From Cyanobacteria bacterium PR.3.49 (lineage in GTDB: Bacteria > Cyanobacteriota > Vampirovibrionia > Obscuribacterales > Obscuribacteraceae), in NCBI GenBank assembly GCA_013997645.1, contig PNKB01000014.1, forward strand, positions 1-49,380: a stretch of 49,380 nt of DNA. The letters run 5' to 3'. Below the pieces are notes generated by a model. That model was given only the letters and a program-made list of their open reading frames with translations. It had not been told where the DNA came from and did not search any database. How positions within the stretch are numbered: the stretch's first letter is position 1; each line of letters starts with the position of its first letter. Made by a program: the position numbers and the translations under genes. Positions 3,555-30,360 of this stretch are shown in pieces.

Positions 3555-4310
3555 CTATTTTTGCAGGAGATAGAACTCGTAGCCGTACTGCTCGCCAAAC
3601 TTGCGATATATATCTATTTCTTCTTCGGCATTGGCAATTGCAGTTTTGAGATCTTCATCACTGCCGGCTTCAGCCTTGAGCTTCTCTATGTTTTTCTCCA
3701 GCGGATCATAATATTCGCTCCACCAGCACGAATCAGGAATGGTGAAGTGCTCAATACATGTATAGCCAGGATATTCAATGGCTTCGAGATTTTCAGCTAC
3801 TGAACGCATTTCAGGATAATGCTTTTTCCAGAATGCCACCGCTTCCGGTGCACGCTCATCGGAAAACCAACTCAGCTCTGTGCATGCCACCATTCCGGTC
3901 TTGGATAACAATGGACGCCATGATTCGAGTGCACGATCGAAGCCGACGCAATAAATTGCACCTTCGGACCAGATCAGATCGATACTGCCGAGGTCGGCTT
4001 CCACCGTCGCCATATCGCCGCATCGAGTCTCGATATATTGGTCCAGCTTTCTTTGCTTGGCTGTTTCGCGCAGTTGCTCGAGAAAACTTTCCTCTTTATC
4101 CACACAGACAATTTTTTGCTTGAGCATATAAGCAAGAACCAGTGATGCGCGTCCGGGTCCGCAACCAAGATCGAAAATCTTCGCATCGGCAGGCAGAGCG
4201 GGCAGCCGACCTAAGGTCTCGGCCGTGCAGACATCAGAGCCGGGACCCTGGCGAGGCAATCCGGCATGCAACCGCATAAAGGCTTCGCGTTCTTTCGAGT
4301 TATTATCCAT
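3555..4310 (-). CDS. Class I SAM-dependent methyltransferase
   Basis: The 251-residue protein has the Rossmann-fold SAM motif I (IFDLGCGPGRAS, residues 45-56), an acidic residue at the end of strand 2 (CVDKEE) that would bind the ribose, and a GDMATVEAD segment for adenine contact. The later part contains the hydrophobic IDLIWSEGAIY strand 4 typical of small-molecule methyltransferases. It starts 11 nt after the stop of pnkp on the same strand and is therefore probably cotranscribed with the RNA-repair genes. Whether it acts on RNA, protein or a metabolite is not visible; it has no recognisable RNA-binding domain. Confidence 0.8.
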   Translation of the reverse strand: MDNNSKEREAFMRLHAGLPRQGPGSDVCTAETLGRLPALPADAKIFDLGCGPGRASLVLAYMLKQKIVCVDKEESFLEQLRETAKQRKLDQYIETRCGDMATVEADLGSIDLIWSEGAIYCVGFDRALESWRPLLSKTGMVACTELSWFSDERAPEAVAFWKKHYPEMRSVAENLEAIEYPGYTCIEHFTIPDSCWWSEYYDPLEKNIEKLKAEAGSDEDLKTAIANAEEEIDIYRKFGEQYGYEFYLLQK

Positions 4311-4321
4311 TCAAAAAAGCC

Positions 4322-6874
4322 TCATAGGCGGGGATCGACCGGTTCGGTTTCCATGGCGAGCACACCAAACACACATTCGTGCACGCGGTAAAGCGGCTCC
4401 TCTCGCACAAAGCGCTCGAGCCCTTCCACACCAAGCGCGAACTCCCGCGCCGCAAGAGCTCGTTTTCCTCCAACTCCTCTGACTCGCAAACGACTCAAAT
4501 GCTCAGGCGCGGTGTACTCAGGACCATAGATGATTCTCAAATATTCCTTGCCTCGGCATTTGATGGCAGGTTGTACAAAGCCTTTCGATCCTGTGGCGAT
4601 GAAATCGAACGGCTTCACGACCATTCCTTCGCCACCATTATCAGTCAGCTCCTGCCACCAATCGATAGCGTGCGCCATTTCTTCAGGGGAAGTCACATCA
4701 ACCACTTTGTACGGCGTCGCTATCAGCATGCCCTCGGTAACTCCCGCCAGTTTAGCAAGAGTATCCATGTGCCACTGATGATTTTTATCGAAGTAGGTCT
4801 TCTTTTCAGTAGCCAACAGGTGAAATGGCGCCAGTTTTAGATCGTCAAGTGAGTTGACAGTCCAGCAATACTGGCGATAAGCGTCACGGAACTGCTCGGT
4901 GCACTTCTCGCGTTGAGCATATCTATCCAGGAGTTCTTCTGCGCCGGCGAGCCGAGCGGCGGTTTGTTGCAGAGCGTACACGGCCGCGTGAAGTGAAACG
5001 CGCGCCGCTGCTCCGACTGCGGCGTATTGTTTGCGCAGCAATTCTTGTGCCTTGGCAGACCAGGGCATCAATTCGCAATCGAAGATGAACCAGTCCGATT
5101 GAAATTCATCCCACCAGCCGCATGCATCAATGGCCGCATGTACTTTAGAAATGAATTCGCGCTCCAGCTGAAGATCATTGAAGAAACGGCGTCCGGTGCG
5201 CGTATAACAAATGCCGCGGCCCTCGCCATAGACTTTGAAACGCTTCTCAGCCGCCTTTTCATCTCGGCACACTATAACTACCGCGCGCGAGCCCATGTGC
5301 TTTTCCTGGCAGACAACTTGAGGAATGCCGGCGTTCATGTAATAACGCAGAGCTTCGGCGGGATGTTCGAGCATGCCTTCTGCCGATGTCGTTTCGGAAG
5401 GAGACATAGTCGGTGGCAAGTAAACAAGCCACTTGGGACTGACGGCAAATCTCGACATTACTTCGATCGCCGCCATGGCATTCTCTTCACGCACAGTAAT
5501 CGAGCGTTGCAGGCGCGTTGTAATAATGCGCTTTCCGAGCACGTCTTGAATGTCTAGCATGTCCGTGTCGCGAGCGGAACCATTATCGAGCGCCGCGCTG
5601 CTTTCACCTTCAGGAAGAAACGGTTTGACGGATTCATAATATGTGTAGGCAGCCTTCACGGAAACAAGCTCTTTCTCAGGGTATCTGAGTGCAGTAAGCT
5701 TGCCGCCAAATACACAACCGGTGTCGAGGCAGATCGTTTTATTGATCCATTCGCTTTCCGGAACGGGCGTGTGTCCGTACACCACCATGGCATGACCGCG
5801 GTAGTCCTGTGCCCAGTTGTAGCGCACCGGCAAGCCATATTCATCTGTCTCTCCGGTGGTTTCACCATACATGGCAAACTCCCTGACTCGCCCTGACGAG
5901 CGTCCTTGAAATTGTTCTTTCAAACCGGCGTGCGCCACAACAAGATTGCCATCATCCAATACATAATGACTGACCAATTTATCCATGAATTTGAGCGCTT
6001 GCTGCCTAAATTCATCCGAATGATTATCCAACTGCTCCAGCGATTCCTTGAGACCATGCGTGATGCGCACATCTCGACCCTTCAGCTTTTTGATCAGCTT
6101 AGCTTCATGGTTGCCAACGACGCACAGTCCTGTGCCACCATTGACCATGCTCATGACCAATTGAAGAACTTCCGGTGTCTTCGGTCCGCGGTCGACAAGA
6201 TCGCCGACGAAGACAGCTTTTCTTCCTTCCGGGTGAGCGAGCACACCGCTCTCGTTATGAGCGTATCCGAGCTGATTGAGCAAGATTTCCAACTCGTCGT
6301 AGCAACCGTGAATATCACCGATGATGTCGAAGGGACCTCTTTCATCACGTTTGTTTGTCCACAGTTTTGTGCGCTCGATTTCTACGTTGTCTACTTCCTC
6401 CTGCGAATCAAGAATGTATACATGGCGGAAGCCTTCGCGCTCCAGTCCGCGCAAAGATTTACGCATAGCCATATGTTGACGGCGCACCACATGCTCGCCA
6501 AACTGCCTGTCCGGGCGCTCTTCATTGCGGGCATGACAAACTTCGCGCGGAATGTTGAAAACAATCGCCACAGCGAAAACATCATGCGCCTTTGCGGTGG
6601 CAACGACCTCTTTTCTGTCTTCGGGACGAACGCTTGTCGCGTCGATGACGGAGAGTTTGCCGGCCGTCAGTCTTTTGGAGGCAATATAGCGGACAAGATC
6701 GAAAGCATCTTTGCTCGCGCTTTGATCGTTTTCGTCATCACTGACCAAGCCGCGGCAGAAATCCGAGGAAATAACTTCCGTCGGCTTGAAGTGCCGCTTT
6801 CCAAAGGTCGACTTGCCGCAACCGGAAGGACCGATCAGCGCCACAAGACAAAGTTCGGGTATTGAAATTTTCAT
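4322..6874 (-). CDS. pnkp: Polynucleotide kinase-phosphatase-ligase (bacterial Pnkp, RNA repair)
   Basis: All three catalytic modules of bacterial Pnkp are present in the usual order and length (850 aa). The 5'-kinase has the P-loop GPSGCGKST (residues 15-23). The metallophosphoesterase that removes 2',3'-cyclic phosphate has GDIHG (186-190), GDLVDRG (224-230), GNHE (254-257), VAHAG (313-317) and YGHTP (366-370). The C-terminal ligase has the nucleotidyl-lysine motif KHMGSR with Lys525 and a later GEGMVVKP motif V. In characterised bacteria Pnkp heals and seals broken RNA together with Hen1. Its ATG overlaps the hen1 stop in an ATGA tetranucleotide, so the two are translationally coupled. The likely substrates are tRNAs cut by ribotoxins. 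Confidence 0.96.
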   Translation of the reverse strand: MKISIPELCLVALIGPSGCGKSTFGKRHFKPTEVISSDFCRGLVSDDENDQSASKDAFDLVRYIASKRLTAGKLSVIDATSVRPEDRKEVVATAKAHDVFAVAIVFNIPREVCHARNEERPDRQFGEHVVRRQHMAMRKSLRGLEREGFRHVYILDSQEEVDNVEIERTKLWTNKRDERGPFDIIGDIHGCYDELEILLNQLGYAHNESGVLAHPEGRKAVFVGDLVDRGPKTPEVLQLVMSMVNGGTGLCVVGNHEAKLIKKLKGRDVRITHGLKESLEQLDNHSDEFRQQALKFMDKLVSHYVLDDGNLVVAHAGLKEQFQGRSSGRVREFAMYGETTGETDEYGLPVRYNWAQDYRGHAMVVYGHTPVPESEWINKTICLDTGCVFGGKLTALRYPEKELVSVKAAYTYYESVKPFLPEGESSAALDNGSARDTDMLDIQDVLGKRIITTRLQRSITVREENAMAAIEVMSRFAVSPKWLVYLPPTMSPSETTSAEGMLEHPAEALRYYMNAGIPQVVCQEKHMGSRAVVIVCRDEKAAEKRFKVYGEGRGICYTRTGRRFFNDLQLEREFISKVHAAIDACGWWDEFQSDWFIFDCELMPWSAKAQELLRKQYAAVGAAARVSLHAAVYALQQTAARLAGAEELLDRYAQREKCTEQFRDAYRQYCWTVNSLDDLKLAPFHLLATEKKTYFDKNHQWHMDTLAKLAGVTEGMLIATPYKVVDVTSPEEMAHAIDWWQELTDNGGEGMVVKPFDFIATGSKGFVQPAIKCRGKEYLRIIYGPEYTAPEHLSRLRVRGVGGKRALAAREFALGVEGLERFVREEPLYRVHECVFGVLAMETEPVDPRL

Positions 6875-11522: not shown

Positions 11523-11563
11523 AGAAATTCATCTATATATCAAACCGGCGAGGCAAAGATTGA

Positions 11564-12232
11564 ATGAAAAAACGTCATCTTATCAATGCAATCGCGGCAT
11601 CTCTTGTTGCAATTCTACCGGCAGTCTCAGCCCCCGCCAATTCATATAATCAGGCAGTGGCAGACTATAACGCCGGCAGATACGGGCAAGCGGCTGCCGC
11701 GTTTGAGACTATCAAAGCCAGTTATCCAAATAATGCTTTGACACACTATTACCTGGCGCTCTGCCGCCAAGCGCTTGGTCACTTCGACAAAGCAAGACAA
11801 GAATACGAATGGGTATCGCAGTATGGAGATGCAAGCCTGAAAGGTCTTGCCTCTCAAGGTCTTTCAAGAATGTCGGGCGCAAAAACATCGACTTCCTACT
11901 CAGGTGGATCGACAAGCACTGCATCTGCCAGTCCTGGTGCTGGAAGCCGCCCTCCAGCTAACGCAAAGGTGAAAAAGATTCTCGAATTCTACGCAGATTG
12001 GTGAGGGCCGTGTAAAAGATTCGCCCCCGTGTTTGAGGCGACCCAACAAAAATACAGAGACGTTAGCTTCCAGGTTATAGATGTTGATAAAGATAAGGCG
12101 ACCAGCGACAAATATGGAGTTTCAGGAATACCACATCTAGTCTTTCTTGATGGTGGTGGCAATGTGTTATACAGCGGCGGAGCATTCTCGGATGAAGAAT
12201 CCTTCTCCTCAGCAATAAACAAATTCCACTGA
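11564..12232 (+). CDS. Selenocysteine-containing secreted TPR-like/thioredoxin protein (TGA at 12002-12004 read as Sec)
   Basis: A conventional reading stops at TGA 12002-12004 after 146 residues, in the middle of the thioredoxin active site. Reading TGA as Sec gives a 222-residue protein, matching the 225-residue neighbour: signal peptide (residues 1-25), TPR-like helical repeats (about 27-105), a Ser/Ala/Gly linker, and a thioredoxin domain with active site W-U147-G-P-C150-K. The rest of the domain (VIDVDKDKATSDKYGVSGIPHLVFL, including the cis-Pro loop IPHL) is intact, in the same frame, and ends at the same FH* position as the paralogue. A hairpin follows the TGA at 12021-12041 and a tRNA-Sec lies at 30265-30360. 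Likely role: exported redox enzyme in which Sec is the attacking residue. A plain nonsense mutation is the alternative but fits less well. Confidence 0.9.
12002..12004 (+). other. UGA selenocysteine codon
   Basis: The TGA replaces the TGC codon of the first active-site cysteine found in the adjacent paralogue (TGG-TGC-GGA-CCA-TGT there, TGG-TGA-GGG-CCG-TGT here). Confidence 0.88.
12021..12041 (+). promoter_or_regulatory. SECIS-like hairpin downstream of the UGA
   Basis: TCGCC (12021-12025) pairs perfectly with GGCGA (12037-12041), enclosing an 11-nt loop. The loop begins 21 nt after the TGA, within the spacing expected of bacterial SECIS elements, which are read by SelB inside the coding region. 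The paralogue at 12301 lacks the complementary arms at this place. The stem is short, so the exact structure is tentative. Confidence 0.55.
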
Positions 12233-12300: not shown

Positions 12301-12978
12301 ATGAAAAAACACCAACAAGGAAAAGCACTGATAATAAGCACCCTGGCATTTGCTTTCATAGCAGTACAGGGTGCTTTTTCTGCGCCGAGTTTCAATCAAG
12401 CAGTGGCAAATTACAATGCAGGGAAATATGGACAGGCAGCAGCGGAGTTTGAAACTCTGAAAGCAGCTTATCCGAACAACTCGATGACACGCTACTACTT
12501 GGCACTATGCCGGCAAGCGCTTGGCCATTTTGACAAAGCGCGCGATGAATATCAATTTGTTGCCACCAATGGCGATGCTCGATTGAAAGCAATGGCACAG
12601 CAAGGACTGTCCAGAATGTCCGGGGCAAAAACTTCGGTTGCTTACTCCGGCAGTACGGCAAGCACAGCTTCAGCAAGCCCGAGTGCGGGCAGCAGACCAT
12701 CGGCAAATGCGAAAGTGAGGAAGATCCTCAAATTTACAGCCGTATGGTGCGGACCATGTAAAAGATTCGCACCAATATATGAGGAAACAAGCAAGAAATT
12801 TAGCGATGTAAAATTTGAAACAATCGACATCGATCAGGACAAGGCAACAGCTGACAAATATCAAGTTCAGGCCATACCGCATCTGGTATTTCTAGATAGT
12901 TCGGGAAATATCCTGTACAGCGGCGGAGCATTCAATGACGAAGAGTCATTCTCTGAAGCAATCAAAAAATTCCATTGA
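12301..12978 (+). CDS. Secreted TPR-like/thioredoxin protein, CGPC form
   Basis: The 225-residue protein has a signal peptide (1-28, ending FSA), a helical TPR-like region (FNQAVANYNAGKYGQAAAEF through the QALGHFDKARDEY helix), a Ser/Ala-rich linker and a thioredoxin domain with the classical WCGPCKRF motif and the IPHL cis-Pro loop. The protein is expected outside the cytoplasmic membrane, possibly as a disulfide reductase or oxidase. It lies 68 nt after the selenoprotein gene and is closely similar to it along the entire length, so it is a tandem duplicate and serves as the natural Cys counterpart of that selenoprotein. AGGCAG precedes the ATG. Confidence 0.9.
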   Translation: MKKHQQGKALIISTLAFAFIAVQGAFSAPSFNQAVANYNAGKYGQAAAEFETLKAAYPNNSMTRYYLALCRQALGHFDKARDEYQFVATNGDARLKAMAQQGLSRMSGAKTSVAYSGSTASTASASPSAGSRPSANAKVRKILKFTAVWCGPCKRFAPIYEETSKKFSDVKFETIDIDQDKATADKYQVQAIPHLVFLDSSGNILYSGGAFNDEESFSEAIKKFH

Positions 12979-12990
12979 GTACACCAATAA

Positions 12991-13701
12991 ATGAAAACAA
13001 CTAAAACGATAAAAGCATTGATAGTCACCACAACGGCTCTTGCCTTCACGGCCATACAAGGTGCTTACGCTGCACCGAATTTCAATCAGGCCGTTGCCGA
13101 CTATAACGCCGGAAGGTACAGCCAGGCAGCTGCGCAGTTTGAATCCGTCAAAGCAGCTTACCCAACTAATGGACTGAATCGCTATTACCTGGCACTGTGC
13201 CACCAGGCCCTCGGTCATCTCGAACAGGCGCGTCAAGAATATCAGTATGTTGCCACCACCAACGATGCGCGATTGAAAGCACTGGCGATGCAGGGCATGC
13301 AAAAATTAGGCGGCGCCAGAGCATCAGCGACTCCCGGTTACAATCCCAATCCGGCAGCAGTAGCTGCAGCAAACGCTGCGATGGCGGCGATGAAGAATGG
13401 ACAGACGGGCTCCAGCACAAATCCCAATGTCATGCCGGTCAAAAAGATCTACAAATTCACCGCGCCCTGGTGCGCATCCTGCCAGCGATTTGCACCCATT
13501 TTCGAGGCAGTGAAACCAAAATTCAATGACATCACTTTTCAAGAAATTGATGCAGATTCAAATCCAGACTTGAAAGCACAATTCCAAGTCTCCTCAATTC
13601 CGAGACTTGTATTCTTCGATGCAAACAACAAGGTCATTTATAACGGCGGCACGCCGACGACAGCGGATGGATTCACAAGGCTAATTCAGAGATATAAATA
13701 G
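12991..13701 (+). CDS. Secreted TPR-like/thioredoxin protein, CASC form
   Basis: This third tandem copy (236 aa) begins 12 nt after the second, so it is very probably cotranscribed. Architecture is the same: signal peptide ending YAA, TPR-like helices, a longer Ala/Asn-rich linker, and a thioredoxin domain. The active site is WCASCQRF rather than CGPC, and the cis-Pro loop is IPRL. In this fold the dipeptide between the cysteines sets redox potential, so this copy probably has a different redox preference from its neighbours. It is the most diverged of the three. Its stop codon touches the inverted repeat in front of the arsR-like gene. Confidence 0.88.
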   Translation: MKTTKTIKALIVTTTALAFTAIQGAYAAPNFNQAVADYNAGRYSQAAAQFESVKAAYPTNGLNRYYLALCHQALGHLEQARQEYQYVATTNDARLKALAMQGMQKLGGARASATPGYNPNPAAVAAANAAMAAMKNGQTGSSTNPNVMPVKKIYKFTAPWCASCQRFAPIFEAVKPKFNDITFQEIDADSNPDLKAQFQVSSIPRLVFFDANNKVIYNGGTPTTADGFTRLIQRYK

Positions 13702-13734
13702 TACACTATTCCACAATCTCGTGTAATAGTGTAC
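13701..13734. promoter_or_regulatory. Perfect inverted repeat: operator candidate for the ArsR-family repressor
   Basis: GTACACTATT (13701-13710) and AATAGTGTAC (13725-13734) are exact reverse complements separated by 14 nt, ending 9 nt before the ATG of the ArsR/SmtB gene. Members of this family commonly bind imperfect inverted repeats over their own promoter, so autoregulation is likely. It could also contribute to termination of the upstream operon, but no T-run follows. Confidence 0.65.
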
Positions 13735-13743
13735 AATGTCAGT

Positions 13744-14127
13744 ATGAATACCAGAGTCAAAATCAACAAAAAGCAGCAAAACTGCTGCCCTGTGCACTTT
13801 ACATTCCCTGAACAGGAGCCGATAACGACAGATCAGGCGTCAGAGTTGGAAGATTTGTTCAAAATACTCGCTAACGACACCCGCCTGAGGCTGCTTCACA
13901 CTTTGGCGAGAGTGGAAGAGATGTGCGTCTGCGACTTGGCCGATGCCGTCGAGATGACTCCTCAGGCTATTTCAAATCAGTTGCAGAGACTTTCGGATCG
14001 AGGCATTGTCTCCACTCGCCGCAGTGGAACCATGATTTATTACAGGGTTGTCGATCAATGTGTGATCGGTTTACTACAAAAAGCGATGTGCCTGCTCGCA
14101 GACAGCGAGCGGCGCGCCGACTCATAG
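13744..14127 (+). CDS. ArsR/SmtB-family metal-sensing repressor
   Basis: The 127-residue winged-helix protein carries the family core: LFKILANDTRLRLLHTL, then EMCVCDLA in the metal-sensing helix with Cys61 and Cys63, then MTPQAISNQLQRLSDRGIV as recognition helix. Two further cysteines (Cys14-Cys15) near the N-terminus complete a CadC-like set of thiol ligands, which points to soft metals such as Cd, Pb or As(III) rather than to Zn/Ni sites made of His/Asp. I prefer ATG 13744 over GTG 13729, which would place the start inside the inverted repeat. It is followed 13 nt later by a metallothionein gene, its probable target. Confidence 0.9.
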   Translation: MNTRVKINKKQQNCCPVHFTFPEQEPITTDQASELEDLFKILANDTRLRLLHTLARVEEMCVCDLADAVEMTPQAISNQLQRLSDRGIVSTRRSGTMIYYRVVDQCVIGLLQKAMCLLADSERRADS

Positions 14128-30264: not shown

Positions 30265-30360
30265 CGGGGATGCGTAGGAATCGAACCCACCCAGGACAGC
30301 GTTTATCTGCCCCACAACGGTTTTGAAGACCGCACGCCACACCAGCAGCGCTCCATCCCC
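30265..30360 (-). tRNA. selC: tRNA-Sec (anticodon TCA)
   Basis: Read on the minus strand this folds as a selenocysteine tRNA: acceptor GGGGATGG with GCATCCCC plus discriminator G, a 6-bp D stem (CGCTGC/GTGGCG) with the short TGGT loop, anticodon stem-loop GCGGT-CTTCAAA-ACCGT with anticodon TCA at 30324-30326, a long variable arm (GGGCAG/CTGTCC around ATAAACG) and a T arm GTGGG-TTCGATT-CCTAC. The long acceptor and D stems, the UCA anticodon and the long variable arm are the marks separating tRNA-Sec from suppressor and serine tRNAs. CCA is not encoded. It implies that SelA/SelB/SelD exist elsewhere in the genome, and supports reading TGA 12002-12004 as Sec. Confidence 0.95.

Follow-up and report, generated by a model that had tools for sequence, protein, structure and literature searches.

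A family of probable selenocysteine-containing thioredoxins with a TPR region in the Obscuribacterales

The read-through gene and its tandem relatives

The window analysed here, a stretch of 49,380 nucleotides, is contig 14 of a 322-contig draft assembly that is 82.8% complete. Three consecutive genes for proteins with a TPR region followed by a thioredoxin domain lie in it, together with a tRNA gene further downstream (Table 1). By protein, the nearest named relatives are 'Candidatus Melainabacteria' and 'Candidatus Obscuribacterales' assemblies (Cyanobacteriota/Melainabacteria group). The frame of the first gene holds a single internal TGA, codon 147. As originally predicted, this codon falls exactly on the first active-site cysteine: in the alignment with the next gene it faces a TGC (WUGPCKRFAP versus WCGPCKRFAP), the following 75 codons are open, and the terminal FH residues are the same in both proteins. 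In shuffled sequence a 75-codon open stretch arises with a chance of 3.4%, and it is the longest read-through behind the TGA-ending frames of the window (8 of the 39 frames of at least 100 aa), the next one reaching 36 codons. Since such a stretch can be expected about 3% of the time by chance, the evidence must come from comparison.

Table 1. Position and basis of the features at the locus.
Feature	Coordinates	Strand	Basis or remark
Probable selenoprotein gene (signal peptide, TPR, thioredoxin)	11564..12232	+	222-aa read-through CDS, stop TGA 12230-12232
GAGG, Shine-Dalgarno-like	11550..11553	+	10 nt ahead of the ATG; seen in sequence
Predicted signal peptide, residues 1 to ~25	11564..11638	+	By eye: KKR, hydrophobic core, AxA-like site
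TPR region, five helices, residues 25-104	11636..11875	+	Pfam TPR matches and structure model
Thioredoxin domain, residues 135-222, active site W-U-G-P-C	11966..12229	+	
UGA codon, predicted selenocysteine 147	12002..12004	+	TGA in 25 genes, TGC/TGT in 37 relatives
Predicted bacterial SECIS hairpin	12021..12041	+	RNAalifold, pair counts, Cys controls, codon invariance
Tandem Cys paralogue, CGPC	12301..12978	+	70% identity to the read-through protein
Second tandem Cys paralogue, CASC	12991..13701	+	48% identity to the read-through protein
tRNA-Sec (selC), anticodon UCA	30265..30360	-	ARAGORN; Rfam RF01852 69.2 bits, gathering 47

Domain searches agreed with the TPR-thioredoxin make-up that had been proposed for the selenoprotein, and the N-terminus is export-like as judged by eye. 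With Pfam the read-through protein matched thioredoxin (PF00085) at 71 bits for a cut-off of 23.5, in addition to TPR; the 146-aa truncated frame gave TPR alone and no thioredoxin. Membership in the PF00085 type is indicated by the profile score above cut-off, the WUGPC site, the Ile-cis-Pro (IP) and the fold. Against the NCBIfam thioredoxin equivalog TIGR01068 the protein scored 71 bits, short of the 96.8 required, which by this rule sets it apart from plain stand-alone thioredoxins. The 20 NCBIfam models listed for the read-through protein, the selenoprotein models TsoB and PDO_seleno_TRX included, all stayed below their cut-offs. The structure model, built with an alignment of 77 sequences (an alignment-free version gave a pLDDT of 48), displays a thioredoxin fold and a TPR fold, with block means of 94-98 over residues 31-100 of the TPR part and a pLDDT below 50 for most of residues 1-22, in the predicted signal region. 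Among the matches listed in PDB structure searches there was no CnoX/YbbN or other TPR-thioredoxin chain, a result that excludes nothing.

Directly behind the three genes lies a gene of the ArsR/SmtB metalloregulator family (window 13729-14127, + strand; NF033788, 88.8 bits). No metalloregulator frame was found beside the cluster in the stretches of G002, G004 and G006 that were examined.

Recurrence of the UGA codon and the hairpin behind it

The active-site codon was followed among relatives in two genome sets of the order Obscuribacterales, first of 40 and later of 53 genomes, each set including the genome of the window. The TPR-thioredoxin family was found at E 1e-25 or better in 41 of the 53. 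From 66 extracted gene pieces four were left out: G003b, which has no CxxC, G019c, later seen to be a Cys gene, and G059b and G020b, which did not fit a motif pattern requiring W, R or S in front of the Cys. One further family match (G011:C15) and most of the weaker matches of the 40-genome search also lie outside the extracted set. The 62 remaining genes display the Cys/Sec exchange that had been suggested as a check on this column: TGA occupies the codon in 25 genes from 24 of the 53 genomes, that of the window included, and TGC or TGT in 37 relatives from 30 genomes. An apparent 26th TGA case (G019:C58, with one TGA and one TAA) was rejected because both stops are located further upstream and the active-site residue is Cys. 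Among the 25 Sec genes the motif is UGPC in 16, the others reading UAPC, UGAC, UVPC, UQPC, UPPC or UGYC; Ile-cis-Pro is present in 20, and an acidic residue is found six positions before Sec in 23.

Downstream of the UGA the frame is open in all 25 Sec genes, and the resolving Cys and the thioredoxin motifs are kept. We computed dN/dS for six Sec genes of the same genus. Of the 15 pairs, 6 could be used for the part before the UGA, with values of 0.05-0.10, and 12 for the part after it, with values of 0.04-0.19; dS is saturated in the others. Purifying selection past the UGA indicates that the thioredoxin half is still a translated and selected protein, and the frame decay considered beforehand as a sign to the contrary was not seen in these relatives. 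In a database of 5.8 billion proteins, at least 55 homologues among the 120 listed have as their last residue the Trp that precedes the active site, in keeping with the splitting by gene callers that had been foreseen; four of them are named tetratricopeptide (TPR) repeat proteins by their sources. In two Sec genes, G057 and G058 (L184:1891-1938 and L186:1487-1534), the motif reads FHLDG-U-VPC, with Gly in place of the Trp before Sec; the UGA and the hairpin described below are kept there.

Sixteen nucleotides past the UGA begins a predicted stem of five pairs (12021-12025 with 12037-12041), which can be closed in two ways: by C12026-G12035, with A12036 bulged and the loop CCGUGUUU, or by C12027-G12035, with the loop CGUGUUU at 12028-12034. 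Counting the UGA as positions 1-3, the pairs of the Sec genes are U20-A40, Y21-R39, G22-C38, C23-G37 and S24-S36, and one more C-G pair closes the loop containing GUGUUU. RNAalifold applied to 12 Sec segments predicted a stem of six pairs in the register with C25-G34 closing and A35 bulged, two pairs having two-sided changes and none being broken; in five Sec genes with G at position 35, RNAfold closes C25-G35 and C26-G34 around CGUGUUU. Pair counts in the C25-G34 register amounted to 100% in 12 Sec segments and 93.6% in 14. In the C26-G34 register 94.7% of the cells were paired over 23 Sec segments, a set that omits G043a and G044a because they are identical to G041a there; the covariation of these 23 segments was 0.346 against 0.162 after shuffling, a value reached by none of 500 shuffles. 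By contrast, the same columns of the 37 Cys segments were paired at 54.5% against 56.3% when shuffled (reached by 421 of 500 shuffles), and RNAalifold predicted no pair in them. A single Cys gene of the 37, G006b, has all five stem positions pairable, using G-U, and the segment of the paralogue 12301-12978 that matches the hairpin region does not form the hairpin.

Codon usage points to the same element. The codons CCC GTG TTT stand at +8 to +10 in 22 of the 25 Sec genes and in none of the 37 Cys genes. In the 20 Sec genes of the main group, 26 degenerate codons are invariant in amino acid, of which only CCC GTG TTT are invariant as codons; they are consecutive and span the apical loop of the hairpin. 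A test on 12 genes, with 35 amino-acid-invariant codons, singled out the same three.

We compared these hairpins with the bSECIS model as given in the part of PMC13188914 available to us. This model has an apical loop of 3-9 nt, an upper stem of 4-16 bp and a UGA-to-loop spacing of 16-37 nt, and 22 of the 25 Sec genes fall within these ranges with a loop of 7 or 8 nt, 6-7 pairs and a spacing of 22-23 nt. The first G of the loop is expected at the first or second place (same part of PMC13188914): it is second, followed by U, in the five Sec genes with the loop CGUGUUU, and third in the other 17 stem-keeping genes as RNAfold closes them, by C25-G34; closing by C26-G34 would fit the rule. The energy limit given there is -7.5 kcal/mol or lower (PMC13188914). 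It was reached by 5 of the 25 isolated 23-nt hairpins (-10.5), the other 20 lying above it; the window's own isolated hairpin, at -6.5 kcal/mol, misses it, and the minimum free energy structure of the 54-nt segment of the window gene, folded as a single sequence, is another fold. The hairpin is thus conserved like a bSECIS yet misses the energy rule as folded here. The check by folding that had been suggested for this region gave a SECIS-like hairpin with covariation.

The three Sec genes that do not keep the stem, G018, G022 and G056, branch elsewhere in the tree and show weaker hairpins of a different kind in roughly this position. These genes (L160, L158 and L185) form a second TGA group with UGPC or UGYC and with PVW for PVF, and perhaps represent a separate gain of Sec.

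Selenocysteine machinery and the reading of the UGA

The original prediction implied a set of sel genes in this organism. We found selB (291 bits, cut-off 242) and selD (369 bits, cut-off 125; a Cys form by eye) in the genome and tRNA-Sec in the window; SelA was not found in the 82.8%-complete draft, so that the absence of selA, one of the findings named beforehand as refuting, formally holds for this draft. The Rfam family RF01852 also matches in 5 of 14 control genomes. On contig C52 of the same genome selD is followed by yedF, a selenium-metabolism pair (L072:1471-3251). The tRNA-Sec gene, which the original prediction had not mentioned, lies about 18 kb from the selenoprotein gene here and about 11-15 kb from it in G002:C39, G003:C414 and G006:C1. 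In G029, G034 and G039 the tRNA-Sec family matches at about 47 bits, at the cut-off, and SelA was not found there; these matches are probably other tRNAs.

In G006, a genome of the same genus, the neighbours of selA are an acyltransferase-like gene on one side and trmH-like and tuf genes on the other (names by eye). A search of the genome of the window (G000) with this 9.2-kb stretch, in which 40 of 61 first-look candidates were scored, gave colinear matches to query 45-242 and to query 979-2776. The latter ends at base 22 of contig C240, before selA; neither selA (query 4039-5562) nor trmH of the query had a match in the genome. Past query 2776 the matches were limited to four short fragments (33-63 bases), of which two fall within tuf and two in the interval from trmH to tuf. 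Because the colinear match stops at a contig end before selA, we infer that selA is present in the organism and was most likely lost with tuf into an assembly gap; a true loss is judged less likely, as the colinear stretch breaks at the end of C240.

Across the order selA was found in 38 of 53 genomes. It is present in 20 of the 24 TGA carriers, the other four being drafts that are 66-84% complete (that of the window, G002, G004 and G056); in the draft G004 the thresholds applied reveal no SelA, SelB or tRNA-Sec. In genomes at least 85% complete, selA accompanies 18 of 18 TGA carriers against 6 of 11 carriers of Cys-only family members (Fisher p 0.004, kinship ignored). Taken over all genomes regardless of completeness, the figures are 20/24 and 9/17 (p 0.045, kinship likewise ignored).

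The recurrence of the UGA together with a matching hairpin in so many relatives makes it very likely that the codon is read as selenocysteine, and for the UGA at 12002-12004 itself we hold this decoding with high confidence. The evidence for decoding is about as good as sequence can give, whereas the function is inferred. In the mechanism that we propose, the UGA would be translated as Sec by tRNA-Sec and SelB, directed by the predicted SECIS hairpin, and the protein would be exported via its N-terminal signal. The TPR part would then hold protein partners while the Sec-Gly-Pro-Cys site would attack disulfides outside the cytoplasm, Sec serving as the fast nucleophile and Cys150 as the resolving residue; the tandem Cys copies would be selenium-independent relatives. 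A role as an extracytoplasmic thioredoxin-like disulfide reductase is favoured with moderate confidence by the residues (the Ile-cis-Pro loop and the acidic residue six positions before Sec) and by the fold.

It is less likely that the same selenoprotein does another job, as a periplasmic chaperedoxin-like holdase or as an oxidase or isomerase. A TPR domain joined to a thioredoxin domain is the make-up of the chaperedoxin CnoX, according to the portion of PMC8129009 consulted. The model of the TPR part is good, and type III secretion chaperones are among the VIA-align matches of this part, a similarity of fold only. However, the domain order is reversed with respect to CnoX, the N-terminus is export-like, and UGPC with Ile-cis-Pro is the pattern of thioredoxins. 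This pattern is linked to reduction.

As to the codon, SelA was not seen in the draft and some termination at a Sec-UGA is usual, so that one might think of a UGA read as Cys or Trp, or read leakily, the TPR-only form being the main product and the full-length protein a minor one. We regard this as improbable: tRNA-Sec, SelB, SelD and YedF are present, SelA is found in most TGA carriers, and the exchange is with Cys, although the motif pattern required U or C and the dropped G003b has neither. The absence of SelA from the draft, and the short form found in databases, would also suit a UGA that is a real stop, with a secreted 146-aa TPR protein as product and the thioredoxin part as a decaying remnant. 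This is more improbable still, given the open frame with its resolving Cys and motifs in 25 of 25 genes, the purifying selection past the UGA in the six genes tested and the codon-invariant hairpin after it; moreover, under decay the stop would not come to be fixed at a single codon. A sequencing or assembly error turning TGC into TGA, a thought that arises since assembled contigs and not reads are the basis here, has a negligible probability and is refuted by the occurrence of the codon in 25 genes from 24 separate genomes and by the homologues that end at the same Trp.

Known systems and exchange between Sec and Cys

Read as a selenoprotein, the protein is a new architecture and a new lineage for a known kind. 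Sec-thioredoxins (Trx, PF00085, UxxC) are an established family, e.g. WP_010956703.1 (PMC13188914; also in the part of PMC9312934 seen), with which it has in common the thioredoxin fold, Sec for the first active-site Cys, UxxC and a SECIS within the coding region. In contrast to them, the domain stands here behind an apparently exported TPR domain, in the Obscuribacterales and with tandem Cys copies. The thiol:disulfide interchange protein PF13098 (UxxC), SaoT, HUIPC and Trx7/PDZ (CxxU) also have a thioredoxin-like fold with UxxC or CxxU, but no TPR domain in their PMC13188914 entries. The fusion had been put forward as one not known from any described selenoprotein family, in agreement with the 2026 selenoprotein inventory, whose 119 entries include no TPR fusion (PMC13188914, Table 1) and whose text contains neither 'TPR' nor 'tetratricopeptide' nor 'cyanobacteri'. 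CnoX (YbbN) likewise unites thioredoxin and TPR in one chain; its thioredoxin domain is N-terminal and its TPR domain C-terminal (PMC8129009, the portion consulted), whereas here TPR precedes thioredoxin in a predicted exported protein with UXXC. CnoX hands substrates to GroEL and has SXXC in E. coli or CXXC in Caulobacter (same portion of PMC8129009). The paralogues 12301-12978 and 12991-13701 share the architecture of the read-through protein and differ from it in having CxxC and in a matching segment that does not form the hairpin.

As far as the sections available to us go, Sec decoding went undetected in Cyanobacteria in a survey of 2006 (PMC1794560), and a review of 2022 counts them with the lineages apparently without Sec (PMC9312934). 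A survey of cyanobacterial thioredoxins that includes Melainabacteria has neither 'selen' nor 'TPR' in the accessible part of its text (PMC9025218), and among the papers listed in searches of the open-licence PMC literature none dealt with selenoproteins of this group. The present results would place the Sec trait on the non-photosynthetic branch that is sister to the cyanobacteria. They also recover an enzyme family whose entries are systematically truncated: many members are found in public databases in a short form, the cause being a UGA, very likely a recoded one, ahead of the catalytic domain. With Sec and Cys versions of the same enzyme in tandem, the benefit of selenium for disulfide chemistry can be addressed in a clean setting, and the conserved SECIS loop could serve as a query for finding more selenoproteins in these bacteria.

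We mapped the Sec label onto a tree of the 62 genes. It needs 7 changes (5-7 in bootstraps), 3 of them forced by well-supported branches. A single clade for all 25 Sec genes was rejected (AU test, p 0.0001), as was one for the 22 Sec genes with the common loop codons (p 0.016). Cys genes are nested among the hairpin-sharing Sec genes: G016, G010/G061 and the tandem copies of this genus. Since those 22 Sec genes share one hairpin, the nested Cys genes would most simply be Sec-to-Cys reversions, as read from one gene tree; some of the placements are weak, the fork of G016 having a support of 82/48. Such reversions are described as rare in the parts of PMC1794560 and PMC13188914 (section 10) that we could consult, and here is a family in which they seem frequent.

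More tentatively, and somewhat short of an even chance in our estimate, the whole could be a first for the Cyanobacteriota/Melainabacteria branch, both as a described selenoprotein family and as a worked-out Sec-decoding system. The protein would be a secreted selenothioredoxin guided by its TPR part; its main SECIS would have had a single origin, with repeated later changes from Sec back to Cys, and the Sec gene would be kept next to its Cys copies as a natural selenium/sulfur pair that switches extracytoplasmic disulfide chemistry with selenium supply. If this were true, repeated reversion among these thioredoxins would run counter to the rule that limits such reversions almost to FdhA and SelD.

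Two minor features of the Cys genes may be added. In G016 (TGT; L169:1961-2008, + strand), a genome without SelA at 92% completeness, the active-site codon is followed by CCT GTG TTT GAG, which resembles the loop of the Sec genes and is a possible relic SECIS. In 7 of the 37 Cys genes a Lys stands six residues before the active-site Cys, at the position that holds Glu or Asp in the 23 Sec genes counted above. These are window 12301-12978 and 12991-13701, L157, L154, L155, L034 and L169, five of the seven being tandem copies of this genus, and their redox behaviour may differ from that of the Sec genes.
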